A DNA stretch of 64,000 bases, from contig JACQWO010000048.1 of NCBI GenBank assembly GCA_016209225.1, positions 1-64,000 of the forward strand, given 5' to 3'. Both the position numbers and the translations under genes were made by a program. Each line of letters opens with the position of its first letter. The first letter of the stretch is position 1. Positions 1,848 through 63,954 of this stretch are shown piece after piece. The notes beneath the pieces were generated by a model that saw nothing but the letters and a program-made list of their open reading frames with translations, searched no databases and was not told the DNA's origin. Origin of the DNA: Desulfobacterales bacterium (lineage in GTDB: Bacteria; Desulfobacterota; UBA8473).

Positions 1848-2313
1848 GGTCTTTGAAAAGATGTTTTACATCTCTCTTGAAGCTCTCAATGCGGATCATG
1901 AAGGATGCGATATAGCGGTAACCATAGGTTTTGATGGATATGTAAAAGGAGAAGACGATATAGCGGTAACCATAAACTTTGACGGATCTGTAAGGGGAGA
2001 AGGGCAGCTCTCTCTTTCGGGAGGGTTGACAGAGATGATGGCGCAAAATATGCTGAGTCTTGACGCCTATGAAATCACGGAAAAAGACATAGAAGATTGC
2101 TCTAAAGAGGCGGCAAACATGATCTGCGGGAATTTCCTCCGGAAGTTCAATGTTGACGAAGCATTTAACCTGTCCCTCCCCATATTTAGGAGAAATCCAG
2201 GGGCTATTCCATGCCAGGGGCCGGATTTACAGGACTCTATGTTTAGATTGAACTTTGTGTCAAACGGTGAATGCCTGGAGGTAATAATGACGATGGCCGA
2301 TCGCAATAGATAG
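1795..2313 (+). CDS. cheX: CheX/CheC-like CheY-P phosphatase family protein
   Basis: A 172-aa protein of the CheC/CheX/FliY type, likely a phosphatase of a phosphorylated receiver. The family's Asp/Ser-x3-Glu-x2-Asn motif is visible as D101, E105, N108, followed by ICGNFL and a proline at 129. GGGAG precedes the ATG, which lies inside the preceding receiver gene. Residues 39-70 are an exact in-frame duplication product (DIAVTIxFDGxVxGE twice), from two 48-nt units at 1909-1956 and 1957-2004. The TAG stop is the first triplet of an intergenic TAGCCTGTAG repeat. Family assignment is good; CheX versus CheC is less sure. Confidence 0.8.
   Translation: MMVDTKKIKKMLMDSTFEVFEKMFYISLEALNADHEGCDIAVTIGFDGYVKGEDDIAVTINFDGSVRGEGQLSLSGGLTEMMAQNMLSLDAYEITEKDIEDCSKEAANMICGNFLRKFNVDEAFNLSLPIFRRNPGAIPCQGPDLQDSMFRLNFVSNGECLEVIMTMADRNR
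1909..2004 (+). repeat. 48-nt in-frame tandem duplication inside the CheX-like gene
   Basis: Units 1909-1956 and 1957-2004 both begin GATATAGCGGTAACCATA and differ at only a few bases. Each encodes 16 residues of the beta-strand region. The length is a multiple of three, so the frame is kept. Confidence 0.95.
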
Positions 2314-2422
2314 CCTGTAGACTATTAGCCTGTAGATTATTAGGCTGTAGACTGTAGGCTTTTAGACTGTGCGGTTACTAACAGCCTTCAGCCTACAGAC
2401 TATTAGCCTACTACAGCCTAAA
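2311..2422. repeat. TAGCCTGTAG-word repeat spacer
   Basis: Runs of TAGCCTGTAGAC, TAGGCTGTAGAC and their complements (CAGCCTACAG, CAGCCTAAAC) fill the spacer. Left words read TAGCCTGTAG and right words read the complement, so the tract can fold on itself. The first TAG is the stop codon of the CheX-like gene. The same family recurs at 9136-9250, 17580-17634 and 29135-29196. Confidence 0.85.
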
Positions 2423-2440
2423 CACTTGCACTACAGAAAA

Positions 2441-2512
2441 TAGGGTTCGAGGATTCCAGGATTCGAGGGTTCAAGGGATTTAATTTTAACGCCTTTCACT
2501 TGAATCCTTTAG
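2441..2512. repeat. GGATTCAAGG-word repeat spacer before cheB
   Basis: Tandem words GGGTTCGA, GGATTCCA, GGATTCGA and GGGTTCAA are followed by the inverted TTGAATCC, directly adjoining cheB. The family recurs at 14028-14085, 26703-26734, 29716-29806, 39834-39871 and 62034-62069. No promoter could be recognised in this gap. Confidence 0.8.
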
Positions 2513-3612
<1,100 letters not shown>

Positions 3613-3626
3613 GGATGATGTAGTAT

Positions 3627-5849
3627 ATGGAATATACTCTATTAATCAATTTACTGAACGAAATTGCTTCTGAATTCATGATCCTTGGCAAGGGCGATAT
3701 CGATGTCCCATCTGCCGGTAAATTTCTCAACAAGCTCGACAACGTGATAAAGAAGGCAGAAACCCTCAAAATTGGTCAGATCACGGAAGTAGCCAGGGCA
3801 TCGATTCATATTCTGGAGAAGATTATACTTGATGCCATGGATGATAAGGAGGCAGGATTATCTCTATTCGAAAAGGGTATCTCCCTGATGCAGGAAATTA
3901 CCGAGAGATATGAGAACACAGGCACGTATCAGGGGAACGTAAGGGAGTTTATTGAGACAGTTTTTTTCCTTACAGGGGAGGAATTGACGAAAGATACGCC
4001 GGAAACGGTTTCCCCTTATCCACAAGAAGAGGGGGCACCGGAAGAAAAATTTCAGATTGAGGATGAGTCTCTGCTGAAAGATTTTATTACCGAGGGACTG
4101 GAATATATAGAGCAGATCGAAATAAATGTCCTCAATCTAGAGCAAAATTCAGAGGACAAAAATTATATAAATGCCGTCTTCAGACCCTTTCACTCAATAA
4201 AAGGGGTAGCCAGTTTCCTTAATCTGGAGGAAATACGTGATCTATCCCATAATCTGGAGGACCTTCTGGACAAGGTGAGAAGCGATGAATTGCCTGTTAC
4301 TCCCCACCTTATAGATGTTGTCCTGGATGGAGCTGATGCCTTAAAGACAATGATCGGTCAGTTGAAGGACGATCTGGAAGGCAGGGGAGGAGAGCCATTT
4401 AAAGTGGATACTGCCGGCATAGAAAGCCGGATAAAACAAATTGAAGAGTGCCGCTTTGTTGAGGATGCTCCCAATGTAAAAAAGGTGGGAGAAATCCTTA
4501 TGGATGATGGCATCATCACAGAGGATGTCCTTGAAGAGAGCTTGAAGATAGCACAGGGACCCCCTGAGAAAAAGATTGGAGAGACACTGATAAGCGAGGG
4601 TAAGGTTACCCCCAAACAGTTGTCCAAGGCATTGAGAAAACAGGCGGATCGGATTACCGATACAACAACAATCAGGGTGGATATCGGAAAATTAGATGAC
4701 CTGATTGACATGGTTGGTGAACTGGTTATTACCCAGTCCATGATTCAGGAGGCTCTTAAAAAACAATCAAATACAGACAGAAACCTCATGAGAAACATTT
4801 CTCAGTTCTTCCGGATTACATCGGAACTACAGAGGGTATCCACAGGTCTGAGGATGATACCGATCAAACAGATATTTCAGAGGGTATCACGCCTGGTGAG
4901 AGATCTTGCCAAAGACGCCGGAAAGTTGGTTGCCGTCGAGATACAGGGTGAAGAAACGGAGATTGATCGTAACATGGTGGATGAAATTTATAACCCCATT
5001 GTCCATATGATACGGAACTCTGTTGATCACGGCATAGAGATGCCGGGAGAAAGGATAAAACTCGGCAAATCGGAACAGGGTTTGATCCGCTTGAAAGCCT
5101 ACCACAGAGGGGGAAACATCATCATCGAAATATCCGATGACGGAAGGGGATTGGACAAAGAAAAAATCCTGGAAAAGACCATTAAGAACGGCATCATCAA
5201 CAATGCCGACAGTCTTACAGATCAGGATATTTTCCGACTCATTTTCCTGCCCGGTCTTTCGACAGCAAAGGCGGTGACAGATGTCTCAGGACGTGGGGTC
5301 GGCATGGACGTGGTAAAACAAGCAGTAGAAAAACTGCGGGGAAAAATAGATATCGAAAGTCTTTATGGGAATGGCACCACCTTCATAGTAAGTTTCCCTC
5401 TTACCATGGCCATTATTGATGGGATAATTTTAAAGGTGGGCACTGAATATTATATCCTTCCGACAATGGCGATTCGTCAGATGTTACGTCCCTCTCGGGA
5501 CCTATACAACAACATTATCGGCAAAGGAGAGACAATTAACGTGATGGGTCAATTGCTGCCCCTTGTAAGATTGTATGATTTATTCCATATAAAACCTGAA
5601 TGCAGGGACCCCTGGGAAGGTATCGTGGCGGTTGTTGACGGAGATGGCCGATCCAAATGTCTGCTGGTGGATAAGATCATAGGTAAAGCAGAGGTAGTAA
5701 TCAAGAGCCTCGGTGATGGGTTAAAAAATATTAAGGGGGTTTCTGCCGGCGCCATCCTGGGCGATGGTAACATCGGGCTGATTCTGGACCCTGAGGGGTT
5801 ATTTGAATTAAGTGAAGAGAGATCAACGATGAATAGTTATTCCAATTAA
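3627..5849 (+). CDS. cheA: CheA chemotaxis histidine kinase
   Basis: Receptor-coupled kinase that phosphorylates CheY and CheB. Order in the 740-aa protein: a helical region (1-120) like a degenerate Hpt domain; an active Hpt domain with His189 in HSIKG; about 55 residues with two MshEN-like helical hairpins ([20 protein letters not shown] at about 287 and [20 protein letters not shown] at about 317); the dimerisation helices; the ATPase with Asn464 in RNSVDHG, DDGRG (504-508) and GRGVGMDVV (about 555); and a C-terminal CheW-like domain (about 600-735). No separate P2-type CheY-binding domain is obvious. No cheW lies in the window. The MCP gene follows after 13 nt with a good AAGGAGG. Confidence 0.96.
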
Positions 5850-5862
5850 CAAGGAGGTTGTT

Positions 5863-7026
5863 ATGATTAATGAAATCTTATTGACCGCAGGAATCTGCGC
5901 AGCGGGGGGAATGACAGTGCTATTGGCATTATATCTGATTTTTAAATGGACGCTTACCACCAGGCTATGGGGACAGCTCCTGCCGGGGGTCTATATGCTG
6001 GCGATGGCTCTATTTATCTGGGGCAAATTTGGCATATACAATATCATGGTCACTATTATCGCGCCCTCCTTAGGGATTGCCTTAATGCTGGGAACCTTGA
6101 TTTTTGTCGCGCGGAAGCTATCAGTTCCATTAGAAAAAATTGCCTCCGGTATGATCGAGGTATCCGACCAGGTTACCTCTGCCTCCTCTCAGATAGCTTC
6201 TGCCGGCCAGTCATTTGCAGAGAATGCCTCGGAGCAGGCGGCGGGGTTGGAGGAGACTTCCTCTTCGATTGAAGAGATGTCGTCGATGACGAGGCAGAAT
6301 GCGGACAACGCCAATCAGGCCAATAATATGATGGCGGATACAAGCAAGGTTGTGGAGGAGGCGAACCGTTCGATGGCCGAATTGAATGAGTCGATGAAAG
6401 AGATTTCTCATGCCAGCGAGGAGACGGCCAAGATCGTCAAAACGATTGATGAGATTGCCTTTCAAACCAATCTCCTGGCTTTGAATGCGGCAGTAGAGGC
6501 GGCGCGCGCTGGAGAGGCAGGGGCTGGATTTGCTGTAGTTGCCGATGAGGTTAGAAACTTAGCCATGAGGGCAGCTGATGCTGCGAAGAATACGGCGAAC
6601 CTGATTGAAGGGACGGTCAAGAAGATCAAGAACGGTTCGGATACTGTATCGAAGACAAACGAGGCCTTTGCGAAGGTCGCATCAGGTGCCCAGAAAGTGG
6701 GTGAACTGGTAGGGGAGATCTCGGCAGCCTCTAATGAGCAGGCTCAGGGGATAGGGCAAATAAGCAATGCCGTAGCTGAGATGGACAAGGTGGTGCAGAA
6801 GAATGCATCTGGTGCGGAGGAGTCGGCCTCAGCAGCAGAAGAGATGAATGCTCAGTCGGAGCAGATGAAGTGTTTAGTGGGAGAGTTAGTAGCATTGATC
6901 GGGGGTCGGAATGGAAATGGAGCGGTTTCTGCAAAAGCACTAAAACATATTGGGGCACACAGTAAAAATAAACTTGTCATCACCCAACCACTTAACCATG
7001 GATTCCGGGAGACCATTCCAATGTAA
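5863..7026 (+). CDS. Methyl-accepting chemotaxis protein lacking a periplasmic sensor domain
   Basis: A 387-aa chemoreceptor. Three hydrophobic segments (about 11-28, 40-56, 62-84) are joined by very short loops, so there is no periplasmic ligand-binding domain. The coiled-coil signalling domain follows almost at once, with the conserved tip [20 protein letters not shown] at about 199-218 and [13 protein letters not shown]. Gln/Glu-rich stretches ([28 protein letters not shown]) look like methylation helices. AAGGAGG precedes the ATG. Input may be membrane state or another protein (inference). It is the last gene of the che operon. Confidence 0.93.
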
Positions 7027-7030
7027 GTAT

Positions 7031-7168
7031 CCGTTCACAGTTCACGGTTTGCAGTTAACAGTTGGCAAAAATGCTTCAAGCTTTATATAATAACAGCAAG
7101 CTTAAGCTTGCTGTTGTGATGCCTGCTGTTATAATTACCGTAAACTGTAAACTGAGAACCGTGAACGG
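7031..7168. repeat. AACAGC-palindrome dispersed element, copy 2
   Basis: Ends are CCGTTCAC and GTGAACGG, forming an inverted repeat. Inside are GGTTTGCAGTTAACAGTTGGC, AAAAATGCTTCAAGCTTTATATAA, a perfect 24-nt palindrome at 7092-7115 (AACAGCAAGCTT/AAGCTTGCTGTT), TAATTACCG and GTAAACTG words. It lies between the convergent MCP and coiled-coil genes and could terminate both, although no T-run is present. Confidence 0.85.
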
Positions 7169-7195
7169 TCATGATAGACTAAAGGTGAAAGACTG

Positions 7196-7726
7196 TTAGG
7201 ACACTTCAGCCCAAACACCTGAGCAGTTATCATTAAAAAATCTCTCTAGATAAAGATTCAGGATGAGTTCTACCTCGCCCACAGGGATGTCAAGGATATT
7301 CACTATCTCGTCAATTTTCAGACCTCTTTGCTTAAGGGCAACAATCTTCTGTTGTCGGTGCGACTCGACTTCGAGGCTGTTTATGCTTTCCGGATAGGGG
7401 CCGACAGATATGTCGGTTTTATTAAACTTCTCGAAGGTTGCTATCTTTTCGTCCACAGAGGCTTCTATTGCCTTTAATGCCCCGATCTTTTTTTCCAGTC
7501 TTTCAAATATGATGTCTGCAATCTCTTTAACCTCCACAAGCTCACGAGTTAGAAGGTCATTGTCTTCCCCCTTTCTTCTGAAAATTCTCTTAAACATTCT
7601 AATCTTTTTCCCCAGTCTTTCAAATATGATGTCTGCAGTCTCTTTAACCTCTGCAAGCTCACGGGTTAGAAGGTCATTGCCCTCCCCTTTTCTTCTGAAA
7701 ATTCTCTTAAACATTTTAAACTTCAA
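7196..7726 (-). CDS. Coiled-coil protein with internal 39-aa duplication and C-terminal HTH-like segment
   Basis: A 176-aa protein of unknown function. A 39-residue unit beginning MFKRIFRRKGE and ending FERLxKKI is present twice (117-nt units 7598-7714 and 7481-7597), followed by a charged helix. The C-terminal segment HRQQKIVALKQRGLKIDEIV resembles the short helix-turn-helix tail found in some motility-locus membrane or coiled-coil proteins. The start is a TTG with GGGGAGG seven bases upstream; an ATG four codons later is an alternative. The last 12 residues (NDNCSGVWAEVS) are encoded by a repeat end (GATAACTGCTCAGGTGTTT), suggesting the original stop was replaced. It lies downstream of cheZ, probably co-transcribed. 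Confidence 0.7.
   Translation of the reverse strand: MKFKMFKRIFRRKGEGNDLLTRELAEVKETADIIFERLGKKIRMFKRIFRRKGEDNDLLTRELVEVKEIADIIFERLEKKIGALKAIEASVDEKIATFEKFNKTDISVGPYPESINSLEVESHRQQKIVALKQRGLKIDEIVNILDIPVGEVELILNLYLERFFNDNCSGVWAEVS
7481..7714 (-). repeat. 117-nt in-frame tandem duplication
   Basis: Two adjacent units, 7598-7714 and 7481-7597, encode nearly the same 39 residues. The period was measured from the repeated TTTCAAATATGATG at 7501 and 7618. It is recent enough that most bases are shared. Confidence 0.95.
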
Positions 7727-7899: not shown

Positions 7900-7943
7900 G
7901 GTAACTGCTCAGGTGGATAGCCTGAACAACCTGAGCAGTTACC
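7900..7943. repeat. Minimal 44-nt element with perfect 15-nt terminal inverted repeats
   Basis: GGTAACTGCTCAGGT (7900-7914) and its exact complement ACCTGAGCAGTTACC (7929-7943) enclose 14 nt (GGATAGCCTGAACA). It begins two bases after the cheZ stop. This is the shortest complete member of the GGTAACTRCTCAGG family, so it defines its ends. Confidence 0.9.
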
Positions 7944-9106: not shown

Positions 9107-9135
9107 CAGTGATCCCCCCTTTCATAAATATATAG

Positions 9136-9250
9136 AACTACACAGGTGTTTAGGCTGCAGGCTATAGTAGCCTAATAGTCTGTAGGCTGTAGGCTGAAGT
9201 AGGCTAATAGTCTACAGGCTAATAGTCTATAGCCTAAACTACAGTCTATC
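9136..9250. repeat. TAGGCTGTAGGC-word repeat spacer between cheY and fliA
   Basis: A degenerate end AACTACACAGGTGTTTAGG is followed by many TAGGCTGTAGGCTG and TAGCCTAATAGTC words. The tract runs into fliA: the fliA stop codon TAG lies inside it (complement of ctacagtctat). Confidence 0.8.
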
Positions 9251-9985
9251 TGCCTGTTTTTCCTTACTGCTCAGTTTTCCCTTAAGTCTTATCAATGTCT
9301 GGCTATGGACCTGACATACCCTGCCTTCTGTCAGGTTCAGTACATTGCCTATCTCCTTCATTGTCATCTCATCCCAGTAATAAAGGGAAAAAATAAGTTT
9401 TTCTTTTTCCGGAAGTTCATCAATAAGGCATGCGAGCAACTCTTTCCTGTTCTTTTCTTCGAATATCTCAAGAGGGTTACCGGCATTCGGATCAGGAATA
9501 CATTCGGCAAGGTTTACCTCATCTTCTCCATTCTTACCATTGAAATTCTCAAACCTCAGTGACGCTGTAACATTTGCATTCTGGAGTATACTGTAGTACT
9601 CATCCAGACTTATTTTAAGACTCTCTGCGACCTCCTCATCCTCTGGCTGGCGCCCGAGTTCTCTCTCAAGCTTAAGATGTGCCTTTTTAATTAAACCGAT
9701 CTTCTTTTTTATGGATATAGGCATCCATTCCATTGCCCGCAGTTCATCAAGCATCGCTCCTTTTATCCTGAACTTCACAAAGGTATTAAGCTTTACCCTT
9801 CCTTGTTCAAACCTCTGAAGGGCATCTAAAAGGCCTACTATCCCGACGCTTATAAGATCCTCTACAGTAAGCTGTGGAGTCAATCTCCACGCTAATCTGT
9901 AGGCAGTATATTTTATGAATGGGAGAGAGTCCTTGATTATTTTTTCTTTTTCTTCCTCGGTTAATCCCATTTTATATCCAGACAT
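9239..9985 (-). CDS. fliA: FliA, flagellar sigma-28 factor
   Basis: RNA polymerase sigma factor for late flagellar and chemotaxis promoters. The 248-aa protein has region 2 (YTAYRLAWRL to DLISVGIVGLLDALQRFE, about 27-63), region 3 (WMPISIKKKIGLIKKAH onward) and region 4 with the helix-turn-helix TMKEIGNVLNLTEGRVCQVH (about 210-229). It is held by FlgM, encoded at 59672-59962. It sits 55 nt downstream of flhG. Its C-terminus and stop run into the TAGGCTG repeat. Confidence 0.96.
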   Translation of the reverse strand: MSGYKMGLTEEEKEKIIKDSLPFIKYTAYRLAWRLTPQLTVEDLISVGIVGLLDALQRFEQGRVKLNTFVKFRIKGAMLDELRAMEWMPISIKKKIGLIKKAHLKLERELGRQPEDEEVAESLKISLDEYYSILQNANVTASLRFENFNGKNGEDEVNLAECIPDPNAGNPLEIFEEKNRKELLACLIDELPEKEKLIFSLYYWDEMTMKEIGNVLNLTEGRVCQVHSQTLIRLKGKLSSKEKQADRL

Positions 9986-10889: not shown

Positions 10890-11977
10890 TTATAACACCC
10901 CTTCTCTAATATGAGATTTACAAGCTTATCCACTGTAGCAAATTCGATGTCTCCGGGCACATTCTGTCCTGTTGTTATATATGCGACAGGCTTGCGGTAT
11001 GTGAGTAGAAAATTGTATAAGGAACCAAATCTCACGGCCTCATCAACCTTTGTGAGGGCTACATAATCAATGGGCAATTTCGTGTAAAATTTATAAGCCT
11101 CTATCATGAACTCATTATCGCAGTTTGCACTCATAAGGAGATGAAGCTCCAAAGGTATATCTGTTTTACATATCTCGGTGATGTAATTGATATATGACTC
11201 ATCACTTGGATTCCTCCCTGTGGTATCTATAAAAATAATATCTCTGTCCTCAGCAAACTTCGAGAAACTATTCTTTAATTCATTGGCGTTCGAGACAATA
11301 GACAACGGTATGCCCATAATCCTGGAATATATTCTCATCTGTTCAAGCGCTCCTATTCTATAGCTGTCAAGATTAATAATCCCAACTCTCTTGCTATCCT
11401 TTATTGCAAGGGCTGAAAGTTTAGCTATAGTTGTAGTCTTTCCTACACCTGTCGGTCCAATGAGCATAACAGCCTTTTTACACCCATCGTTTGAGATGCC
11501 GGATTCCTTTACCTTTATATCAGCCGATATTAACGGTGGTATGTCATTTAAATCATTAGCTTTTCCACAGAGACTTAAGGCAAACTCCTCCCGTACCGAC
11601 CTTTCTCTGAGAAAAGACAATATCATCCTCTTATTTGGCGGCAATGATATTTCATAGCCATTATTTCTCATGTTTTCTATGGTCTCGCGTAGGATCTCGA
11701 TCTCACCTTTAATCTCTTCAATGGACGAGTTGTTAGTCGTAAGCCGTGAGTCTTGAGTCTCGAATATCTTATTTTCTATTCCTGACTCCTGACTCCCGAC
11801 TCCCGACTCCTGACTTTTATATTCCATGTCATAGTCTACCGCCGCGGTCACCTCAACAAAAGGCCGGGCGCCTTTTTTTTCCTCTGTAGACAGTATTATT
11901 GCGTCTTCGCTAAGTTCTTTCTTCACCAATTCGAGAGCCTCAGCAAAATTTCTTGCTTTAAATTTTTTAATCTTCAT
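10883..11977 (-). CDS. flhF: FlhF SRP-type GTPase for flagellar placement
   Basis: Signal-recognition-particle-like GTPase recruiting early flagellar parts to the pole. The 364-aa protein has the B domain (KIKKFKARNFAEALELVKKE, DAIILSTEEK), a linker, then NG domains with P-loop GPTGVGKTTT (174-183), LDSYRIGALEQMR and FIDTTGRNPSD. Linker residues about 54-83 (SQESGVGSQESG ... FETQDSRLTT) are encoded by a GACTCCT-word repeat at 11736-11814 that keeps the frame. It overlaps flhA by 11 nt and flhG by 7 nt. Confidence 0.95.
   Translation of the reverse strand: MKIKKFKARNFAEALELVKKELSEDAIILSTEEKKGARPFVEVTAAVDYDMEYKSQESGVGSQESGIENKIFETQDSRLTTNNSSIEEIKGEIEILRETIENMRNNGYEISLPPNKRMILSFLRERSVREEFALSLCGKANDLNDIPPLISADIKVKESGISNDGCKKAVMLIGPTGVGKTTTIAKLSALAIKDSKRVGIINLDSYRIGALEQMRIYSRIMGIPLSIVSNANELKNSFSKFAEDRDIIFIDTTGRNPSDESYINYITEICKTDIPLELHLLMSANCDNEFMIEAYKFYTKLPIDYVALTKVDEAVRFGSLYNFLLTYRKPVAYITTGQNVPGDIEFATVDKLVNLILEKGCYKC
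11736..11814. repeat. GACTCCT-word inverted repeat inside flhF
   Basis: Five 7-nt words (CCTGACTCCTGACTCCCGAC...) at 11781-11814 face a partly complementary GTGAGTCTTGAGTCTCG at 11749-11762. The tract is read in frame as part of the FlhF linker. Relatives are at 19166-19194 and 27624-27652. Confidence 0.85.
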
Positions 11978-14036
11978 ATCTCAACACCCCCGTGGTAGAT
12001 AGTTTTACTGATGGAGATATCTCTGCATTGGAAAGAATGACCAGCGATGGAAGAAATCTCTCTATGATTTTTCTAAGGAATCTCCTCACCTGCGTGGAGC
12101 AAAGAATAATTGGCTGGGGGCCTTTAAACCTGCCTTCTGTGATGGCGGTCTCTATTGCCCTCATCAATCTATTTACAACTTCAGGACTTATTGCACCTCC
12201 GGCTTCCATGGCCTGAGAAATCACTCTTTCAAACTCCGGATCCAGGGTTGTAACATAGATATTCCCATCAGGAGAGATATACTGTTTGGTTATGTACCTC
12301 GAAAGGGACTGCCTCACATATTCTGTGAGCAACTCCGTATCCTTAGTGGAAGGCGCCCAATCAATAAGGGTCTCAAGTATGGCAACAAGGTCATTTATCG
12401 GCACCCTTTCCCTCAAAAGATTCTGAAGTACCCTTTGAACACTCCCTAATGTTAAAAGAGAAGGGATAAGCTCATCAACAATTTTTGGATAGTTTTTCAA
12501 GAGATTGTCCAATAAACTTTGGACTTCTGTCCTTGTGAGAAGCTCCCACGCATGAGTTTTTATTAGTTCAGTCAGATGTGTAGTAATCACTGTTGGAGGG
12601 TCAATAACCATATAGCCCTTTGTTTGAACCTTATCCATATCTTTATCACTGATCCAGAAGGCTGGAAGTCCAAATGCCGGTTCCTTTGTGGGTATCCCCT
12701 CTATTTCTTCCGCTTCTCCTGATGCAACAGCAAGGCAGTGACCGATCATAACCTCACCCCTTGCAATCTCAATACCCCGTATGAGCAAACTATATTCATG
12801 CGGCCTGATTTGAAGGTTATCCTTTATATGTATTGAAGGCGCAACAAAACCAAGCTCAGAGGCAAGTTGTCTCCTCATTGCCTTTATCTTATTAAGAAGG
12901 TCTACCTTCCCGCCCTCTACAAGGGGGATTAAGCCATAGCCTATCTCAAAGGTAAGCGGTTCTATCTCTATGACAGTATCTATAGCGGGTTCTTGGGCCA
13001 TTGGCTTGATTTTCCGTTCTTTTTCGACCTCAACTGCAGCCCTCGAAAGGACATATGCCAGGGCTCCTGATATAGTCGCAAGAAGTAAGAAAGAAATGTG
13101 TGGAAGCCCAGGTACAAGGCCGAGGACAACCATTACCCCCGATGTAGTACCCAGTGCTTTGGGATTTGTTAATAGCTGTCTGGCTATATCTTTCCCAATA
13201 TCTGTATCTGTTCCGGCACGGCTAACAACAATACCCGCAGCAGTAGAAATGAGCAGCGCCGGGATTTGTGAAACAAGACCATCACCAATGGTCAATATGG
13301 TATAAGTCTTTGCAGCTTCTAAAAGGGGCATACCCTCCTGCAGCGTACCTATCACGAAACCACCGATAATATTTATACCCGTTATTATTAACCCTGCGAT
13401 GGCATCACCTCTGACAAATTTACTGGCCCCATCCATTGCCCCATAGAAATCAGCCTCTTGAGAAACAAGTGTCCTCCTTCTCCTTGCCTCTGATTCATCA
13501 AGGAGCCCGGCATTAAGGTCTGCATCTATAGCCATCTGCTTACCCGGCATTGCATCAAGAGTGAATCTTGCAGCAACTTCCGCTATCCTGCCTGATCCCT
13601 TTGTTATGACCACAAAATTTACAATCACCAGGATCAGAAAGACTACAAAACCAACCGCATAGTTTCCACCTACAACGAAATTCCCGAATGACTTTATCAC
13701 TTCCCCTGCAGCATCCATACCTTCATTCCCTCTGAGCAGTATCAACCTGGTGGATGCAATATTCAATGCGAGCCTGTAAAGTGTTGTTATGAGAAGCATT
13801 GAAGGAAATACAGATAAATCCAGAGGCTTTTTAATATATATGCCGGTTACGAGTATAATTATTGACAGGGATATAGAGAATGACAGAAGGATATCCAGTA
13901 CAAAAGGGGGGATAGGCAGTATCATCACGCCTAAAATAGAGACTACGCCTATGGCAACAAAGACGCCCCCTCTTTTTTGTATCAGTTCGAGAAAGTTCAT
14001 ACCTGTCCACCTATTAAGAGCAAAAAAAGGATTCAA
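11967..14036 (-). CDS. flhA: FlhA flagellar export gate protein
   Basis: Central membrane protein of the flagellar type III export gate. The 689-aa protein has about eight N-terminal membrane segments (to about 330), the conserved cytoplasmic loop with ARFTLDAMPGKQMAIDADLN (about 170-190) and a large C-terminal cytoplasmic domain that binds chaperone-substrate complexes. It starts at ATG 14036; an in-frame internal ATG (MNFLELIQKR, residue 13) is an alternative. The short gap to flhB holds GGATTCAAGG repeats. Confidence 0.96.
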   Translation of the reverse strand: MNPFFALNRWTGMNFLELIQKRGGVFVAIGVVSILGVMILPIPPFVLDILLSFSISLSIIILVTGIYIKKPLDLSVFPSMLLITTLYRLALNIASTRLILLRGNEGMDAAGEVIKSFGNFVVGGNYAVGFVVFLILVIVNFVVITKGSGRIAEVAARFTLDAMPGKQMAIDADLNAGLLDESEARRRRTLVSQEADFYGAMDGASKFVRGDAIAGLIITGINIIGGFVIGTLQEGMPLLEAAKTYTILTIGDGLVSQIPALLISTAAGIVVSRAGTDTDIGKDIARQLLTNPKALGTTSGVMVVLGLVPGLPHISFLLLATISGALAYVLSRAAVEVEKERKIKPMAQEPAIDTVIEIEPLTFEIGYGLIPLVEGGKVDLLNKIKAMRRQLASELGFVAPSIHIKDNLQIRPHEYSLLIRGIEIARGEVMIGHCLAVASGEAEEIEGIPTKEPAFGLPAFWISDKDMDKVQTKGYMVIDPPTVITTHLTELIKTHAWELLTRTEVQSLLDNLLKNYPKIVDELIPSLLTLGSVQRVLQNLLRERVPINDLVAILETLIDWAPSTKDTELLTEYVRQSLSRYITKQYISPDGNIYVTTLDPEFERVISQAMEAGGAISPEVVNRLMRAIETAITEGRFKGPQPIILCSTQVRRFLRKIIERFLPSLVILSNAEISPSVKLSTTGVLRYED

Positions 14037-14085
14037 GGATTCAAGGGGTCAAGGGTTCAACCTTGACCCCTCGAATCCTTTTTCC
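14028..14085. repeat. GGATTCAAGG-word inverted repeat between flhA and flhB
   Basis: Four 8-nt words (AGGATTCA, AGGATTCA, AGGGGTCA, AGGGTTCA) are followed by CCTTGACCCCTCGAATCC, a near-perfect complement, so a long hairpin is possible. The flhB stop codon and its last ten codons (KGFEGSRLNP) lie inside this tract. Confidence 0.9.
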
Positions 14086-15906: not shown

Positions 15907-16022
15907 GTAACTACTCAGGTTGTCAGGTTCACGGTTCACAGTTGGTTGCCTTATCTTCATGCTGGTCTAGTTCATCGTTTTCTAACCTTGAACCTTGGAA
16001 CTTTGAACCCGAGTAGTCACCG
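15907..16022. repeat. GTAACTACTCAGG...CGAGTAGTCAC bounded repeat element
   Basis: The left end GTAACTACTCAGGT (15907-15920) and the right end CGAGTAGTCACCG (16010-16022) are complementary with slight decay. Inside, GGTTCACGGTTCACAG words face AACCTTGAACCTTGGAACTTTGAACC. It lies between fliQ and fliR, within the operon, so it is presumably read through. Confidence 0.88.
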
Positions 16023-21921: not shown

Positions 21922-22479
21922 TTGAAACAGAAGGAACTGGAACGGAAGGAACTGGAAGCACGTGGATATTTCCGGGTGGATGATGTTTTTCCCGTGATCT
22001 CAAGGAAGGTGACAGAAGATTCTCCATATATGAAATCGAAGGTCTTTCCAGGATATAGTATGGAAATTTCCGATATGGATGTATCTGATGGGACAATAAA
22101 TCCACAACTATGGAAGATGCTGGTTAATATTAACACAAAGCTGGGACTGATACTTGAGCACCTGCAACTGGAGAGCGAGGGACTTATAAAGGCTGAAAAC
22201 ATGCCGGTTAATATTAGCGCATCGGGCGTAAGATTCAAAATGAAGGAAAAGGTTGGTATAGGTGACGTAATTGAGATAAAAATGCTTCTGCCTACATATC
22301 CTCCTGTGGGAATACTTGCCTATGGAAATATAGTACAGGTAAATGATCTTGGAAGCGGCGAATATGAAGTCGCTTTATATTTTTCTGATATGGATGATGA
22401 GGTAAGGGACGAGATAATCCAATATACTCTCAAGCGCCAGAGAGAGATTCTAAGGAAACATAAACAACAAACGGTTTAG
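21922..22479 (+). CDS. PilZ-like c-di-GMP effector candidate
   Basis: A 185-aa protein. An N-terminal segment with YFRVDD (16-21) and a helical stretch (60-90) precede a PilZ-type beta domain beginning MPVNISASGVRF (94-105); NISASG matches the D/NxSxxG half of the c-di-GMP motif. The RxxxR half is not clear, so ligand binding is uncertain. The start is a TTG at 21922; no strong Shine-Dalgarno is visible. It follows the HD-GYP gene by 17 nt. The stop TAG is inside a GGTTTAGGGTTCAGGG repeat. Confidence 0.75.
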   Translation: MKQKELERKELEARGYFRVDDVFPVISRKVTEDSPYMKSKVFPGYSMEISDMDVSDGTINPQLWKMLVNINTKLGLILEHLQLESEGLIKAENMPVNISASGVRFKMKEKVGIGDVIEIKMLLPTYPPVGILAYGNIVQVNDLGSGEYEVALYFSDMDDEVRDEIIQYTLKRQREILRKHKQQTV

Positions 22480-22682
22480 GGTTCAGGGTTTAGGGTTCAG
22501 GGTGCAAGGTTCAGGGTTCAACCTTGAACCTTTGTAACTTCAGCCACAGATTCACACAGATGAACGCAGATAGGTTTAAATAATATTGAGGTTGGCTTAT
22601 TATTGAATTTTGGCAGAAAACCAGAATTCAAGAGATTTGTATATGATAATAAAAGAAAAAAAATCAGCGGTAATCAGCGTGG
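22478..22682. repeat. Composite repeat spacer before motA (GGTTCAGG words and CCACAGATTCACACAG element)
   Basis: GGGTTCAGGG, GGTTTAGG and GGTGCAAGG words (22478-22519) face AACCTTGAACC (22520-22530). Then GTAACTTCAGCCACAGATTC begins a second element with words ACACAGATGAACGCAGAT, closed by AATCAGCGGTAATCAGCGTGG at 22661-22682. The second element has closer copies at 54314-54426 and 63874-63922. Confidence 0.8.
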
Positions 22683-25592: not shown

Positions 25593-25780
25593 CGTAAACC
25601 GCTCACGGTTCTCAGTTTGCAGTTTACGGTAATTACAACAGCAGGCATCACAACAGCAAGCTTAAGCTTGCTGTTATATAAAGCTTGAAGCATTTTTGAT
25701 ATTGCTTTCAACTCCTGAATGAGTTCTTTTGCATCTTAGATTTAAGTTTTTGCCAACTGTTAACTGCAAACTGTGAACGG
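25593..25780. repeat. AACAGC-palindrome dispersed element, copy 3 (inverted, with insertion)
   Basis: It starts at the base after the kinase stop: GTAAACCGCTCACGG..., TAATTACAACAGCAGGCATCAC, the 24-nt palindrome at 25652-25675, TATATAAAGCTTGAAGCATTTTTG, then about 50 nt absent from other copies, then TTTTGCCAACTGTTAACTGCAAACTGTGAACGG. It is inverted relative to copies 2 and 4. Confidence 0.85.
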
Positions 25781-25843
25781 AGAACAAATAGCCTGGAGGA
25801 GTAAATGTGGGAAAGTAATTGAAGATGGGGTGGGATATTTATA

Positions 25844-26855: not shown

Positions 26856-27653
26856 ATGAAGGATAAAAATATCATCATCATCAAGAAGGTAAAGAAGCAG
26901 GGGGAAGAGGGTGAGCACGGGGGGCAATGGAAGGTTGCATACGCGGATTTTGTTACTGCCTTAATGGCATTCTTTCTGCTGATGTGGCTTTTAGCCATGG
27001 TAGCCCCTGAAAAAAAGGAGAGGCTTGCTTCATATTTTAAGGAATTCGAGATATTCAACGAGAGCGGTCAATCCTTCATGGGAAAATCCAGCGAGGTCAT
27101 TAATAATGCGGGTAAAGCTCGAAAGGTTCCGCGTGAATTACAGGGGACATCCAATATGAAACCTGAGGAATTTAAAGAAGTAATAAAGAGAGCTATCGAA
27201 GAAAAACTCGGAGACATTAAAGACCAGATAATAGTAGATATATTTGAGGGTGGAGTTCGTGTTCAGTTAATGGACAAAGAAGGGAGGCCAATGTTTGACC
27301 TCGGTTCAACAAAGCCCACGTCCCTTGCGGTAAGGATATTACGGGTAATCGGAGACAACATAAAATTCCTGCCGAATTCTGTCGCTGTAGAGGGTCATAC
27401 CGATTCATTAGCATATAGCTCTACAGGTTACGGCAACTGGGATCTCTCTACAGAACGTGCATTGGCAGCAAAAAAGGAACTGGAAAAAAATGGGCTTGAA
27501 TCTAAACGCCTTATCAGGGTCGCAGGCTACTCAGATACAGTGCCCCTTGTAAAAGAAGACCCGAGGGACCCAAGGAATAGAAGGATAAGCATACTGCTCA
27601 TGTTCCCTGATAAATCAGAGAATCCAGGAGTCAGGAGTCAGGAGTCAGAATGA
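26856..27653 (+). CDS. motB: MotB-type stator protein, pair 2
   Basis: A 265-aa stator subunit starting at ATG 26856 (MKDKNIIIIKK), preceded by AAGGG. The frame is open upstream only through repeat DNA. The membrane helix (about 25-46) has the channel aspartate Asp31 in AYADFVTALM. An OmpA-like domain with VEGHTDSLAY and NRRISILL follows. The last residues (ENPGVRSQESE) are encoded by a GGAGTCA repeat, and its stop overlaps the start of the VWA gene. Confidence 0.94.
   Translation: MKDKNIIIIKKVKKQGEEGEHGGQWKVAYADFVTALMAFFLLMWLLAMVAPEKKERLASYFKEFEIFNESGQSFMGKSSEVINNAGKARKVPRELQGTSNMKPEEFKEVIKRAIEEKLGDIKDQIIVDIFEGGVRVQLMDKEGRPMFDLGSTKPTSLAVRILRVIGDNIKFLPNSVAVEGHTDSLAYSSTGYGNWDLSTERALAAKKELEKNGLESKRLIRVAGYSDTVPLVKEDPRDPRNRRISILLMFPDKSENPGVRSQESE
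27624..27652 (+). repeat. GGAGTCA-word repeat forming a translation start
   Basis: Three and a half 7-nt words (CCAGGAGTCAGGAGTCAGGAGTCAG) end in AATGA. AGGAG six bases before ATG is a good Shine-Dalgarno, so the repeat supplies the ribosome-binding site of the VWA gene. A complementary copy at 19158-19176 also reads GGAGTCAGAATGAAAA, so the ATG is part of the repeat consensus. Confidence 0.8.
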
Positions 27654-29137
27654 AAAGATTACTGACATTATCAGTAGTTCTTACCTTACTCTTATTCTTA
27701 CCTGCACGATTGGCTGCTGATGATGTTTTACCCGGCAAGCAGGGAGCTCAAAAAGGTCAGAGGGCATCCGATAATAATTCGCCAGATCGTGAAGGGGCTG
27801 ATATTATTATATTAATGGATAGTTCAGGCAGCATGAAAAAGACCGATCCCCAAGACTATAGACAGCCGGCGGCAAAGCTCTTTGTATCCCTCCTTGGGGA
27901 AAGTGATCGTATAGGAATTATGAGTTTTGGGGATTCAGCCAGGGTTTTGGCATCTCTTACAGATGCCACCAAGAAAAATCGCGAGGTACTATTTAATGCC
28001 ATCAACAAAATATCTTCAAAGGAATCTTCTACAAATATCTATGATGCCGTAAAAAAGGGGTTTGATGAGCTTAAATCCTGTCAGAAGAAAAGCAGGATTA
28101 TTATTCTGATGTCTGATGGCAAGCTCGCATTGGGTTCAAAGAAAAAAGACGATGCGGCATTTGCAGAACTATCCAGAATTCTACCCGAGTTGACAAAGTC
28201 CAATATCAAGCTTTACACCGTAGCCTTTACGGAAATATCTGACGTGAAACTTCTCGAGGACATGGCAAAGGAAACAGGGGGAGTCTTTAAGTTTGCTAAA
28301 AATGATAAGGATATCCATCTAATATTTGCATCAATCTTTGAGAAGATTAAATCTCCGAATACCATTCCTTTTGAAGGTGAGACCTTCGAGATAGACAAGG
28401 ATATAAATGAAGCGATATTGCTTATTAGTAAGACACCCGTAACATCCACCGAACTCATAGACCCATTAAGAGGGAAACATACCTCCGTGAAATATGGAAA
28501 AAACATAGAATGGTATAAGTCAAACATCTTTGATATGATTACCATCAAGGAACCTGCCGTGGGAAAATGGAAGGTGAAACTAAGCGCCAGAGAAGGGAAT
28601 AAGATATATGTGATAACAAATCTTAGTCTTAAAAGTTCCTTTGACAAAAGCTTTGTTTTTAAAGGAGATAAAATAAAGATTGACGTTTGGCTCGAAAGAG
28701 ATGGCAAAATATTAACAGAAAAGGATGTTCTTAGACAGGTATCCTTCTCTTCTGAAATAGTTACTCCCGGTAGAAAAAGTATGAGATTGGATCTCCTGGA
28801 CGATGGAAAACATGGAGATGATAAGCCTGATGATGGGATATCCTCCCGTGAGCTCGTGGTTAACGAAGGAGGAGAATATGCCATTAAGGCAGTCGCAAAA
28901 AGCATAACATTCAATAGAGAAAAAGTTATTCAGTTTAAGGCTATTTCAAAACCTGTACCGTTGGCAAAACAGATAACACTTTCTAAACCCCCATTGAAGA
29001 AAAAGACCCTGTCTGGGACAGATGTTTCATGGAAATCAGTTCTCATTAAATTTGGCATTATAAACCTGTTATTACTATTTATAGTTACAATTATATATCT
29101 ATACAAAAAAGACAAAAAGGATGGTTTTAAAAAATAG
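27650..29137 (+). CDS. Secreted, membrane-anchored VWA-domain protein next to stator genes
   Basis: A 495-aa protein: N-terminal signal peptide (about 1-23), von Willebrand factor A domain (about 50-235) with an intact metal site DSSGS (57-61), the STNIYDA threonine and ILMSDGK, a beta-rich region (about 240-440, with DDGKHGDDKPDDG that could bind calcium) and a C-terminal membrane helix (about 463-485) with a basic tail. The bulk is therefore periplasmic. It overlaps motB-2 and precedes a membrane coiled-coil protein. I do not know a described function; a role in stator anchoring or adhesion is inference. The TAG stop lies in a TAGGCTG repeat. Confidence 0.85.
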   Translation: MKRLLTLSVVLTLLLFLPARLAADDVLPGKQGAQKGQRASDNNSPDREGADIIILMDSSGSMKKTDPQDYRQPAAKLFVSLLGESDRIGIMSFGDSARVLASLTDATKKNREVLFNAINKISSKESSTNIYDAVKKGFDELKSCQKKSRIIILMSDGKLALGSKKKDDAAFAELSRILPELTKSNIKLYTVAFTEISDVKLLEDMAKETGGVFKFAKNDKDIHLIFASIFEKIKSPNTIPFEGETFEIDKDINEAILLISKTPVTSTELIDPLRGKHTSVKYGKNIEWYKSNIFDMITIKEPAVGKWKVKLSAREGNKIYVITNLSLKSSFDKSFVFKGDKIKIDVWLERDGKILTEKDVLRQVSFSSEIVTPGRKSMRLDLLDDGKHGDDKPDDGISSRELVVNEGGEYAIKAVAKSITFNREKVIQFKAISKPVPLAKQITLSKPPLKKKTLSGTDVSWKSVLIKFGIINLLLLFIVTIIYLYKKDKKDGFKK

Positions 29138-29196
29138 GCTGTATACTGTTAGTCTATAGGCCGTAGCCTACAGCCTAAACAACCTGAGTAGTTACC
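29135..29196. repeat. TAGGCTG-word repeat closed by CCTGAGTAGTTACC
   Basis: TAGGCTGTATACTGTTAG and GTAGCCTACAGCCTAAAC words end in AACCTGAGTAGTTACC (29181-29196), the right end of the GGTAACTRCTCAGG family. The initial TAG is the stop of the VWA gene. Confidence 0.85.
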
Positions 29197-31112: not shown

Positions 31113-31132
31113 CTGCTGCCTCCTTTCAAATA

Positions 31133-31287
31133 TGATGGCTTCGTAAAAAGTCCATCTGCTGCGTTGTGCTGCATCCTTAGTCGTTGCGGCGTACCCCTAA
31201 GTACGCCTCACTCCTCAGGATTTGCGCGCCTTGCATCTGGAGCTTTTTACTTTGCCATCCCAATTGTGACTTTTTACAAATCCATCA
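31133..31287. mobile_element. MITE-like 155-nt element with 20-nt terminal inverted repeats
   Basis: The ends TGATGGCTTCGTAAAAAGTC (31133-31152) and GACTTTTTACAAATCCATCA (31268-31287) are complementary with few mismatches; the interior has no gene. The right end contains the flgD stop codon (TGA of TGATGG read on the minus strand). A solo end (ACTTTTTACGAAGCCATCA) is at 44599-44617. Similar ends occur in many environmental genomes by my recollection. No transposase is in the window. Confidence 0.8.
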
Positions 31288-31653
31288 AATATTTCCGTAT
31301 AGTTCTTTAATTTCCCCAAGGGGGAACTTCTTGTCATTGTCTAATACAAGATAGGTAATGCCATTTTCAAAATTAACCCCGGTAACCTTTCCTGTACTGC
31401 CATCTTGTGTCGTAACATTCCTTCCCATGAGATTTATGGCCATGCTGTTGTTAAGTGAGCTTTGATATGTAAGCAGTTCTTCAATCTTTTTATTCATGTT
31501 GAATAACTGCTCGAGTGAACTGAACTGTGCAAGTTGTGCTGTAAATTCCGCACCTTCCACAGGGTTAAGTGGATCCTGGTACCTTAGTTGAGAGGTAAAA
31601 AGCTTTAGAAAATCATCCTTTCCTAATGTCTTTCCAACAGTTGAAATGTCCAT
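31285..31653 (-). CDS. flgD: FlgD hook-capping protein
   Basis: Scaffold for hook assembly. Starting at ATG 31653 (MDISTVGKTLGKDDFL), with GGAGGGAAG upstream, it has 122 aa; the longer open frame to 31698 runs through repeat words. The N-terminal signature LGKDDFLKLFTSQLRYQDPL (about 10-29) and EFTAQLAQFSSLEQL are diagnostic. It is short for the family, lacking much of the C-terminal Ig-like region. Its stop lies in the end of the MITE-like element, so truncation by insertion is possible. Confidence 0.9.
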   Translation of the reverse strand: MDISTVGKTLGKDDFLKLFTSQLRYQDPLNPVEGAEFTAQLAQFSSLEQLFNMNKKIEELLTYQSSLNNSMAINLMGRNVTTQDGSTGKVTGVNFENGITYLVLDNDKKFPLGEIKELYGNI

Positions 31654-33004: not shown

Positions 33005-33058
33005 GGTAATGTACTAATAACCAAATTCCCAGCAACGATAATCAAGCAGTCTTCGTAT

Positions 33059-33196
33059 CCGTTTACAGTTCACGGTTTGCAGTTAACAGTTGGCAAAAAT
33101 GCTTCAAGCTTTATATAATAACAGCAAGCTTAAGCTTGCTGTTGTAATGCCTGCTGTTGTAATTACCGTAAACTGTAAACTGAGAACTGTTAACGG
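33059..33196. repeat. AACAGC-palindrome dispersed element, copy 4
   Basis: Same orientation as copy 2: CCGTTTACAGTTCACGGTTTGC ... AAGCTTTATATAAT, 24-nt perfect palindrome at 33120-33143, GCCTGCTGTTGTAATTACCG ... GTTAACGG. The remaining gap to motE (33197-33301) holds no recognised signal. Confidence 0.87.
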
Positions 33197-33301
33197 TTAC
33201 CAGTCTTCTTAATTAGCTATTATTGCGGGGGACAAAGTTCCGAAAGGTTCTTGCATGTTTACAAGAGGGGATTTTAAAAGGTATTTACAGGTGAAAATAT
33301 T

Positions 33302-39876: not shown

Positions 39877-40018
39877 GTAACCGTTTACGGTTGTCGGTTC
39901 ACAGTTCACAGTAATTACAACAGCAGGCATCACAACAGCAAGCTTAAGCTTGCTGTTATTATATAAAGCTTGAAACATTTTTGCCAACTGTTAACTGCAA
40001 ACCGTAAACTGTGAATGG
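39877..40018. repeat. AACAGC-palindrome dispersed element, copy 5
   Basis: Inverted orientation (as copies 3 and 6): GTAACCGTTTACGG ... TAATTACAACAGCAGGCATCAC, palindrome at 39934-39957, TTATTATATAAAGCTTGAAACATTTTTGCCAACTGTTAACTG ... GTGAATGG. It lies between the sigma-54 activator gene and the flgB promoter. Confidence 0.87.
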
Positions 40019-40048
40019 ATACGTTATTTGGTTATCACCCTGCATTTT

Positions 40049-41347: not shown

Positions 41348-41368
41348 CTGACTCCTTATTGCTCATTT

Positions 41369-41544
41369 GTAACTACTCAGGCACAAAGTGGCAAAGGCAC
41401 AAAGGCACAAAGTTGTTTTGCCTATTGACTGCTCAATTTCCCTGTTAAACAGCTAATCATTCGTTCTATCTCTCGGCTTAATTCGTTTCATGCTTCTTTG
41501 TGCCTCTGTCACTCTGTGCCTCTGTGCCTGACTGAGTAGTTACG
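41369..41544. repeat. GTAACTACTCAGG...CTGAGTAGTTACG bounded CACAAAG-word element
   Basis: The left end GTAACTACTCAGG (41369) is followed by GGCACAAAG words and CCCTGTTAAACAGC. The right part has complementary TTTGTGCCTCTGTGCCTG words and ends CTGAGTAGTTACG (41532-41544). The right arm also encodes the C-terminal tail of the kinase gene at 41478 (SVTTQSGTEAQSDRGTKKHE). Confidence 0.88.
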
Positions 41545-46701: not shown

Positions 46702-46737
46702 TGTTCTTCTCCTTTCTAAACTTTATATTTGTAGTAA

Positions 46738-46862
46738 CCGTTCACGGTAATTACAACAGCAGGCATCACAACAGCAAGCATTACAACAGCAAGCTTAAGC
46801 TTGCTGTTATTATATAAAGCCTGGAGCATTTTTGCCAACTGTTAACTGTAAACCGTGAACGG
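46738..46862. repeat. AACAGC-palindrome dispersed element, copy 6
   Basis: Inverted orientation: CCGTTCACGG, TAATTACAACAGCAGGCATCACAACAGCAAGCATTAC, palindrome at 46785-46808, TTATTATATAAAGCCTGGAGCATTTTTGCCAACTG, GTGAACGG. An extra AACAGCAAGC half-unit distinguishes it from other copies. GTGCCTTTGTGCCTC words (46866-46886) follow and abut the glycosyltransferase stop. Confidence 0.87.
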
Positions 46863-46890
46863 TCATAACATGACTTTGTGCCTTTGTGCC

Positions 46891-54286: not shown

Positions 54287-54313
54287 TGTCAATCTGGCAT
54301 GGATAAAGAAATC

Positions 54314-58657: not shown

Positions 58658-59446
58658 ATGAAGATTCAAGATAACATTTACACCTCCTATCGGCATAATA
58701 TTGAGGAATATAAAGGGAGAACCGACCCTGGGGCAGTAAAGGCCGTGGCAAAGGAAATGGAGGCGCTTTTCGCATATGAGTTGATTAAAGCGATGCGAGC
58801 CACAACCACTGCAACATCTAATGATAGTCTTGGAAAAGATGTGTACATGAGTATGTTCGATATGGAACTTGCAAGGCTCTTTGCTGAAAGGGGACTTGGG
58901 CTTCGGGATATGTTGTTTAAGGAATTAAACAGAGGAGTCCAAAACACAGAGCATGGAACAAATGGCGAAGATCAAAGAAATTCCAAACTCAATAACCATG
59001 ATTCCCGAACGTCTTCCTTGCCTGTTGATGGTATAATCAGTTCTAACTTCGGTATCCGCAAACACCCCATATATGGGATTGATAGTTTCCACCATGGCAC
59101 AGATATCGCGGCGCCGGATGGCACATCCATATATCCATTTAGAAACGGGAAGGTTATATTCAGCGGTGAGCAGGCAGGTTTTGGGAATGTTGTTATAGTT
59201 GACCATGGGGATGGTTTTACAAGTAAATATGCCCACAATAAGATAAATCTCGTAAAAGAGGGAGATTCTGTGGATACAAATTCTGTGATAGCCCTGGTTG
59301 GAAACACAGGAAGATCAACAGGATCTCACCTGCATTTTGAGGTAAGATATAAGGATGAAAGCATTAACCCCATTTTAGCGCTAAATACGGATGATGCAGG
59401 CACAAAGCCGCAAAGGCACAAAGCAGTTATCGGCTTCAGCCGATAG
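58658..59446 (+). CDS. flgJ: FlgJ-type rod-binding protein fused to an M23 peptidase
   Basis: A 262-aa protein. The N-terminal about 1-95 is the FlgJ rod-binding domain (KAVAKEMEALFAYELIKAMR; DVYMSMFDMELARLFAERGL). The C-terminal about 120-245 is an M23/LytM metallopeptidase with HxGxD (His145, Asp149) and HLHFE (His224, His226), predicted to cut peptidoglycan for rod passage. Enteric FlgJ instead carries a glucosaminidase. The tail beyond NPILALN is encoded by CACAAAG repeat words and ends with a palindrome (TTATCGGCTTCAGCCGATAG). Confidence 0.92.
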   Translation: MKIQDNIYTSYRHNIEEYKGRTDPGAVKAVAKEMEALFAYELIKAMRATTTATSNDSLGKDVYMSMFDMELARLFAERGLGLRDMLFKELNRGVQNTEHGTNGEDQRNSKLNNHDSRTSSLPVDGIISSNFGIRKHPIYGIDSFHHGTDIAAPDGTSIYPFRNGKVIFSGEQAGFGNVVIVDHGDGFTSKYAHNKINLVKEGDSVDTNSVIALVGNTGRSTGSHLHFEVRYKDESINPILALNTDDAGTKPQRHKAVIGFSR

Positions 59447-63487: not shown

Positions 63488-63877
63488 ATGGTACGGTTTG
63501 AGACACCAAGATTTGGAATCTTAGAGGTTGGTGAAGAAAAGATCATAACCTTCCCAGAGGGCCTTCTGGGATTTCCTGATATTAGACATTATATCTTAAT
63601 GGACTACAAGGATACCCCCCTTAAATGGCTTCAGGCAGTGGATAACCCTGATGTGGCATTTATAGTGGCGGGGTCATCCATGCTTTCTCTTGACTATTCA
63701 AGAGAGCTTAATGCTGCCACAAGACAATGCCTTCAGCTCGAAAATGATGAGGACCTTGCAATACTCGTTATTTTAAGGGTGGAAGGCGAGAAGGTGATAG
63801 CCAACTCTCAAGGTCCTATCCTACTGAATGCCAGCCGCATGAGGGGTATGCAGGTCGTTTTGGAAGAAATCAAGTAA
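63488..63877 (+). CDS. fliW: FliW CsrA antagonist / flagellin assembly factor
   Basis: A 129-aa protein that titrates CsrA and is released from flagellin. It has the FliW motif ITFPEGLLGFPDIRHYILMD (about 19-38) and C-terminal SQGPILLNASRMRGMQVVLE. The stop TAA lies in the GTAACTACTCAG end of another repeat element. Its target flagellin should lie outside this window. Confidence 0.96.
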   Translation: MVRFETPRFGILEVGEEKIITFPEGLLGFPDIRHYILMDYKDTPLKWLQAVDNPDVAFIVAGSSMLSLDYSRELNAATRQCLQLENDEDLAILVILRVEGEKVIANSQGPILLNASRMRGMQVVLEEIK

Positions 63878-63922
63878 CTACTCAGCCACCGATCTACGCT
63901 GATCATCACTGATATTTTTACT
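63874..63922. repeat. GTAACTACTCAG-bounded CCACCGATC element, left part
   Basis: GTAACTACTCAGCCACCGATCTACGCTGATCATCACTGATA is the reverse complement of the right arm at about 54386-54426. The element continues beyond, to an unseen right end. The fliW stop is in its first five bases. Confidence 0.85.
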
Positions 63923-63954
63923 TTACCTCGAAAAAATACAGATTTTCCTCCTTT

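Follow-up and report, generated by a model that had tools for sequence, protein, structure and literature searches.

Repeat hairpins at the gene ends of a chemotaxis-flagellar cluster are probably derivatives of S23p-encoding elements

The repeat tracts that close many genes of the chemotaxis-flagellar cluster analysed here are very probably (we give this about 0.8) the arms or internally deleted derivatives of S23p hairpin elements, whose insertion would be nearly indifferent to stop codons and which selection would leave in place at gene ends. The cluster occupies the window, i.e. the whole stretch of 64,000 nucleotides under study (G000:C6:1-64000). Its source genome, G000, amounts to 3.1 Mb in 95 contigs, and the closest named relatives of its FlhA are Thermodesulfovibrionia/Nitrospirota MAGs. 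A full element consists of an S23p gene (PF05635, for the intervening-sequence protein of 23S rRNA, an Avd-like four-helix bundle) placed between inverted arrays of 7- or 8-bp units. Several families have short inverted repeats at their ends and were apparently inserted with duplication of 8 bp of the target. In the scenario that we favour, the short hairpins scattered through the genome are the paired arms that stay behind when the ORF is lost. Selection would remove the insertions in coding cores and ribosome-binding regions, so that in tightly packed operons chiefly the vicinity of the stop codon would be left. When a hairpin enters just upstream of a gene's end, the protein acquires another tail and another stop, the latter met at the ordinary density because 7- and 8-mers rotate the frame, and a GTAA-type end entering in the right frame gives an immediate TAA.

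A preliminary description of this DNA had claimed that a series of stop codons and C-terminal tails come from repeat DNA. We checked them codon by codon and each was within or directly beside a repeat. Repeat tracts supply the stops of the CheX-like, cheB, fliA, PilZ-like, VWA, flhB and fliW genes, and repeat units are contained in the tails of FlhB, the kinase at 41478, MotB-2, a 176-aa protein and an FlgJ-M23 protein. Most were also compared with G002 (contig C1) and G001 (C72), two syntenic sister species within the genus, both at ~93% nucleotide identity. This revealed that the ends of flhB, the PilZ-like gene, cheB, the VWA gene and the 41478 kinase differ between species due to repeat insertion. 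The clearest case is flhB, whose 3' end is spanned by a GGATTCAAG-type hairpin (14023..14085, reverse strand) with a predicted RNA fold of -41.4 kcal/mol (z -8.7). A 7/8-mer palindrome has the TGA at 14049-14051 (reverse strand) in its centre, and its arm encodes the tail KGFEGSRLNP. Conservation of FlhB extends as far as ...ARILAYIY. The residues between there and the stop are AQEKGFEGSRLNP in the window's protein, KLKAESSKLSPLSFISRGQV in that of G002 and RLKAVGCSLQANSLQPKQGGQV in that of G001. One slot is filled by unrelated palindromes: GGATTC, AGCTTTGAG and TAGGCTG, respectively. In both sisters the gene reads through the palindrome until its TGA and the start of flhA overlap as ATGA. The palindrome-centre TGA replaces this stop in the window, where the ATGA is kept only as the flhA start.

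Other stops have a similar origin. The TAG of the CheX-like gene is the opening of a TAGCCTGTAG array (TAGCCTG/TAGGCTG; 2311..2413, forward strand), in a gap where G002 carries a different element, of the GTAACTACTCAGG-GGTTCAAAG type. The same gap, between this gene and cheB, holds a GGATTC-type tract (2437..2491, forward). The TAA of cheB is given by an element of the GGTTCA type (3553..3612, forward), whose left terminal repeat is GTAACTGCTCAGG; the element is flanked by AGGATGGT and AGGATGAT, and the empty site in G002 reads AGGATGGTG-TAG. The TAA of fliW comes from a GTAACTACTCAGC element (CACCGATCTACG-type, PDDEXK_3-linked; 63874..63924, forward). Both of these TAA codons belong to the 'GTAA' of the 13-bp terminal repeat GTAACT(A/G)CTCAG(G/C). 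The final residues and TAG of fliA are provided by TAGGCTG-type arrays (9135..9252, reverse; 47 bp longer than in G002), its ADRL and stop deriving from GCAGATAGACTGTAG. The PilZ-like gene ends in TV and a TAG derived from GGTTTAGGG, within GGTTCAGG-type hairpin arms (22470..22530, forward) that are absent from G001 and almost entirely so from G002. The stop of the VWA gene is the TAG of TAGGCTG, in an element with right terminal repeat CCTGAGTAGTTAC (29135..29195, forward), as seen at the codon level and by comparison with the sisters.

Among the tails, that of the 176-aa protein (DNCSG...) and its stop are the terminal repeat ATAACTGCTCAGG, in frame, of a TAGGCTG-type element (7173..7230, reverse); the full DNCSGVWAEVS is the terminal repeat translated in another frame. 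A CACAAAG-type element (41366..41543, reverse) encodes the tail SVTTQSGTEAQSDRGTKKHETN and the stop of the 41478 kinase, which in G002 ends in FPKSPY. AGTCAGG heptamers (27625..27648, forward) encode the MotB-2 tail GVRSQESE and are common to all three species, which would make this insertion an older one. The tail of FlgJ-M23 contains CACAAAG units (59398..59446, forward); its stop lies ~23 nt beyond the last unit, the loosest case of those listed. Some tracts lie elsewhere. A minimal 42-bp hairpin, GTAACTGCTCAGG...CCTGAGCAGTTAC (7901..7942, strand undefined), has the same ends in G002 around a different core, CACAAAG. An element with the GTAACTACTCAGG terminal repeat occupies the fliR/fliQ gap (15907..16020, strand undefined), where G001 has a different repeat. 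An AGTCAGG-type array lies within the flhF reading frame (11780..11815, reverse); it is in frame and differs among the three species, with 69 bp more and a longer FlhF in G002.

The connection to S23p comes from elements elsewhere in the genome. The ORF at locus L217 encodes S23p (PF05635, E=3.7e-40); it is also bAvd-like and has a PDB 2gsc relative at E=3e-23. Full elements carry such ORFs, and the window's derivatives do not. G000 has 11 PF05635 matches, and eight of the nine that we inspected adjoin or lie between arms like those of the window. The arm families beside S23p are those found at the window's gene ends: GGATTCAAG (L217-L219), GGTTCAAAG (L221) and TAGGCTG with GTAACTACTCAGG ends (L220, L223, L306). 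CACAAAG (L303) and AGTCAGG (L297) flank S23p genes in G003, and no S23p-bearing copy of either was seen in G000. A blind test, with a threshold of ≥30 for the local inverted-repeat score, compared S23p genes with control genes. Inverted short-tandem arms flanked 28 of 37 S23p genes in Nitrospirota (vs 2 of 330 controls) and 18 of 25 in other lineages, e.g. Desulfobacterota MAGs, Gallionella and Cloacimonadota (vs 3 of 324), mostly with period 7 or 8. Across 59 genomes, the counts of the heptamer GTTCAAGG correlate with those of S23p (Spearman 0.56, p=3e-6). The RNA of a full S23p element folds with z -4.9 and paired ends. Most computable pairs of S23p copies have a dN/dS of 0.05-0.3, which denotes purifying selection; one truncated pair has ~0.65 and one short pair ~1. 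All inspected copies adjoin protein genes and none is within an rRNA gene.

Locus C23 occurs in the genus in three states. G000 has the full S23p element with an 8-bp duplication, AAATTAAT; G003 has the same ends and duplication with the ORF deleted; and G001, G002 and G004 are empty. This ties the short hairpins directly to S23p elements for one family only, and the other families are probably linked to S23p through their shared arms. Another S23p copy (C33) has the duplication ATATTTTT. Among the GGATTC-type S23p elements, two have an exact 8-bp duplication. Terminal inverted repeats also occur as GGTTC(A/T)TCTCCC ends. The 13-bp end GTAACTACTCAGG has 100 exact copies in G000 (reversed control: 0); most of the genus has it in abundance, as does one further genus of the family (G006), and elsewhere it is rare. 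Paired GTAACTACTCAGG ends were terminal inverted repeats in 20 of 20 selected loci, delimiting hairpins of 79-346 bp; seven of these 20 GTAA-type elements had exact 8-bp flanking duplications and one such paired element enclosed part of an S23p gene. The cores between shared ends vary (TAGGCTG, GGTTCAAAG, CACAAAG and others). It is important to highlight that a strict search for terminal inverted repeats plus 8-bp duplications around 62 S23p genes gave one match (L217), with L219 as a looser version, vs one in 330 controls; most arms thus have no demonstrable transposon ends. The GGATTC copies of the window do not have the GGTTCATCTCCC outer ends found on full elements, and some S23p genes, e.g. 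L224 and L254, have no clear arms. A long palindromic family (e.g. 7027-7169) matches no S23p arm, hence the reading does not explain every tract. Matching the window's tracts to a library of arms was uninformative, since ordinary gene flanks also carry derivatives.

We quantified the proximity to stops in 735 kb of G000 (the window and 671 kb of other stretches, about half of the stretches being from long or repeat-bearing contigs, so that the sample is not strictly random) and in 444 kb of G002. The 695 genes of the G000 sample were called with a purpose-written dicodon caller. The 176 tracts were defined by self-BLAST depth, tandem matches of period 7-9 and the terminal-repeat motif, and random expectations were obtained from 500 circular shifts. 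Tracts contain 35 of 684 stops, vs an expected 15.5±3.9 (maximum 30), and are depleted in starts (7 of 686 vs 15.6); few lie fully within genes. The association with stops reported in the preliminary description is therefore genuine. Its further claim, that insertion at or next to the stop is favoured, is not supported by our analysis of distances. For 31 tracts in same-direction gaps, the beginning lies at most 6 nt to either side of the stop, and uniform placement in the gap would give 18.7 (p=0.0005). However, when the final 12-18 nt before the start are forbidden, the expectation becomes 28.7-34.4 and the excess vanishes (p=0.3-0.9). The excess also depends on how much coding end is usable: it is not significant with 0 to ~15 nt and becomes significant when at least 30 nt are uniformly tolerated. 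The median length of the DNA left over in same-direction gaps is 9 nt towards the stop and 35 nt towards the start. Tract density in G000 per kb of non-repeat DNA is 1.7 in divergent, 2.2 in same-direction and 2.4 in convergent gaps. The G002 sample shows a similar pattern, except that its 18 divergent gaps hold a single tract. The repeats are not themselves enriched in stop codons (55 per kb vs 57 in ordinary intergenic DNA), which rules out that they act as stop-rich cassettes.

These data bear on the strongest alternative, that stop codons or 3' ends are active targets of insertion, recognised e.g. through terminator structure or a target motif. This would account for the 35 stops within tracts vs 15.5 expected, for an insertion rate per available bp that peaks in G000 at 0-5 nt past stops (6.2 per kb vs 1.1-1.6 beyond 30 nt), for the excess found when at least 30 nt of coding end are freely usable, and for the C23 insertion being only a few nt from a stop. 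We nevertheless consider it unlikely. The excess is gone once the pre-start region is protected and little coding end is usable, the insertion rate is also high 16-60 nt upstream of starts, terminal repeats are equally frequent near starts and near stops, and the 8-bp duplications have no obvious common motif. Moreover, the divergent gaps of G000 hold no stop yet carry tracts; together with a near-stop count that is as expected, this implies that active targeting is not needed. We infer that selection is the cause of the proximity to stops, which would be mainly passive, insertion there doing least harm, with perhaps some weak targeting.

Slightly less probable still is that the repeats are regulatory hairpins held at gene ends by selection, acting in termination, mRNA 3' protection or translational coupling, in the manner of E. 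coli REP sequences. They fold strongly (z<-3 in 48% of tracts vs 4% of controls), they are located downstream of genes, and the heptamers of Xanthomonas and Nostoc have the same positional bias (PMC4692102). Yet both the family and its presence at a given gap differ between sisters, empty sites included, many tracts are within the coding end, and no sequence is conserved at any given gene. Finally, it is highly implausible that the tracts formed in situ, through slippage of tandem repeats and correction of palindromes, with no mobile element. Sisters do differ by one to several units (by 21 bp at 33785, for example, and by 7 bp at 17583), but slippage accounts for length variation only and such an origin is contradicted by identical units and terminal repeats at >100 dispersed sites, by 8-bp duplications and empty sites with duplications (C23), and by the linkage to S23p.

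Returning to the derivation from S23p elements, the 8-bp duplications hint at insertion in trans by an enzyme of the DDE type. A search of two families in the 95-contig assembly of G000 (13 Y1-transposase matches and one IS66 gene) found no transposase gene with matching ends. The GTAA ends and 8-bp duplications fit IS66; the sole IS66 gene in G000 has no such ends nearby. A RAYT/REP origin was rejected, as the tested families are not directly beside any of the 13 Y1 matches, save a GTAAAAAGTC MITE in L185, and so was an autonomous transposon between distant terminal repeats, as the intervals in C44, C63 and C62 contain ordinary host genes. S23p itself may be part of the mobility machinery. 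One could speculate further, although we find it doubtful, that S23p mobilises a widespread class of hairpin transposons that has so far gone unrecognised, in which an Avd-like four-helix bundle copies or inserts heptamer-armed hairpins without a recognised transposase. ORF-less derivatives would then seed genomes and rewrite gene ends, and the intervening sequences of 23S rRNA would be a special case.

The intervening sequences (IVSs) of rRNA are the closest known system. In Coxiella burnetii, the IVS of 23S rRNA has tandem heptamers (GACAGAT) directly upstream of the S23p ORF, in numbers that differ between strains (PMC4990558). As in our elements, complementary ends around the ORF form a long stem (PMC4990558). 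The elements described here differ in being between or within the ends of protein genes, in their many 7/8-mer families and numerous ORF-less derivatives, and in having, in a few cases, 8-bp target duplications. Since the copies are beside protein genes and not in rRNA, they are related to IVSs rather than being IVSs. Excision by RNase III is established for rRNA IVSs (PMC4990558), and by analogy a similar processing of these hairpins would make them tolerable in mRNAs. The MITEs RU-1 (PMC2759123) and QMITE1/2 of Coxiella (PMC5896051) are also non-autonomous inverted-repeat elements that replace stops and add C-terminal tails. In contrast to them, the arms here are tandem 7/8-mers, the cores vary under common ends, and the apparent parent encodes S23p instead of a recognised transposase. 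The elements work like a hybrid of IVS and MITE. The Xanthomonas and Nostoc heptamers are tandem, located in gaps at ≤50 bp from stops or overlapping them, and scarce in coding DNA and divergent gaps; that study treats one G-rich unit as a quadruplex, and the part of it available reports no link to S23p or mobile elements (PMC4692102). In our case, most copies of units such as TAGGCTG and GGATTCAA have no runs of at least three G. The heptanucleotides of Geobacter metallireducens are similarly multicopy and tandem, within and between genes, with some folded-back pairs, but that study interprets them as regulator-binding sites, with no link to S23p in its accessible portion (PMC2700814). The BrickBuilt MITE of Porphyromonas gingivalis encloses a tandem repeat; its unit is of 23 bp, always intergenic, and no S23p parent is described in the abstract (PMC4596501). 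Repeat-derived C-termini and stops (PMC2759123, PMC5896051), heptamers near stops in Xanthomonas and Nostoc (PMC4692102) and S23p with heptamers in the Coxiella rRNA IVS (PMC4990558) were already known. In the open-access literature, to which our search was confined, we met no description of such repeats as originating from S23p elements that are dispersed and armed with heptamers.

Dispersed heptamer repeats occur in Xanthomonas, Nostoc, Geobacter and relatives of Beggiatoa, and their origin is not agreed upon. S23p was labelled functionally uncharacterised as late as 2024 (PMC11270868). Linking the two would give the repeats a parent element and S23p a genomic setting outside rRNA, both of which become testable. 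Repeat insertion also explains lineage-specific tails and shifting stops in conserved genes such as flhB, and makes repeat-derived ends a trap for annotation and for the comparison of C-termini.

We made some additional observations. Elements with GTAACTACTCAGC ends and CACAGATGAACGCAGATG / CACCGATCTACGCTGATC arms are found at 54311-54426, at 63874-63924 and at L263 (G000 C11:45871-46125). The latter encloses a PF13366 / PDDEXK_3 (GxxExxY) gene fragment, which indicates that such ends serve a second protein family, and is flanked by the 12-bp direct repeat TATAAAAGGATA. The separate 140-bp palindromic family, which matches no S23p arm, has a AACAGCAAGCTTAAGCTTGCTGTT core and GTTCACGG/GTTAACAG arms, with copies at 7027-7169, 25597-25784, 33055-33200, 39879-40022, 46730-46863 and 1-77. 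Several occur at the corresponding position of G002, where there is a length variant of 15 bp. A MITE at 31121-31290, with ends near GATGGCTTCGTAAAAAGTC and the 8-bp duplication TCAAATAT, is not in G002, where its relatives sit inside other repeats. The G002 locus has no counterpart of the methyl-accepting chemotaxis gene (5829-7026) that separates cheA from the 176-aa gene. Finally, TTTTCAC heptamers near the starts of the flgH-like and flgI-like genes (56767-56804 and 57532-57569) encode HFSLFTF, which in both products is the hydrophobic core of an apparent signal peptide.
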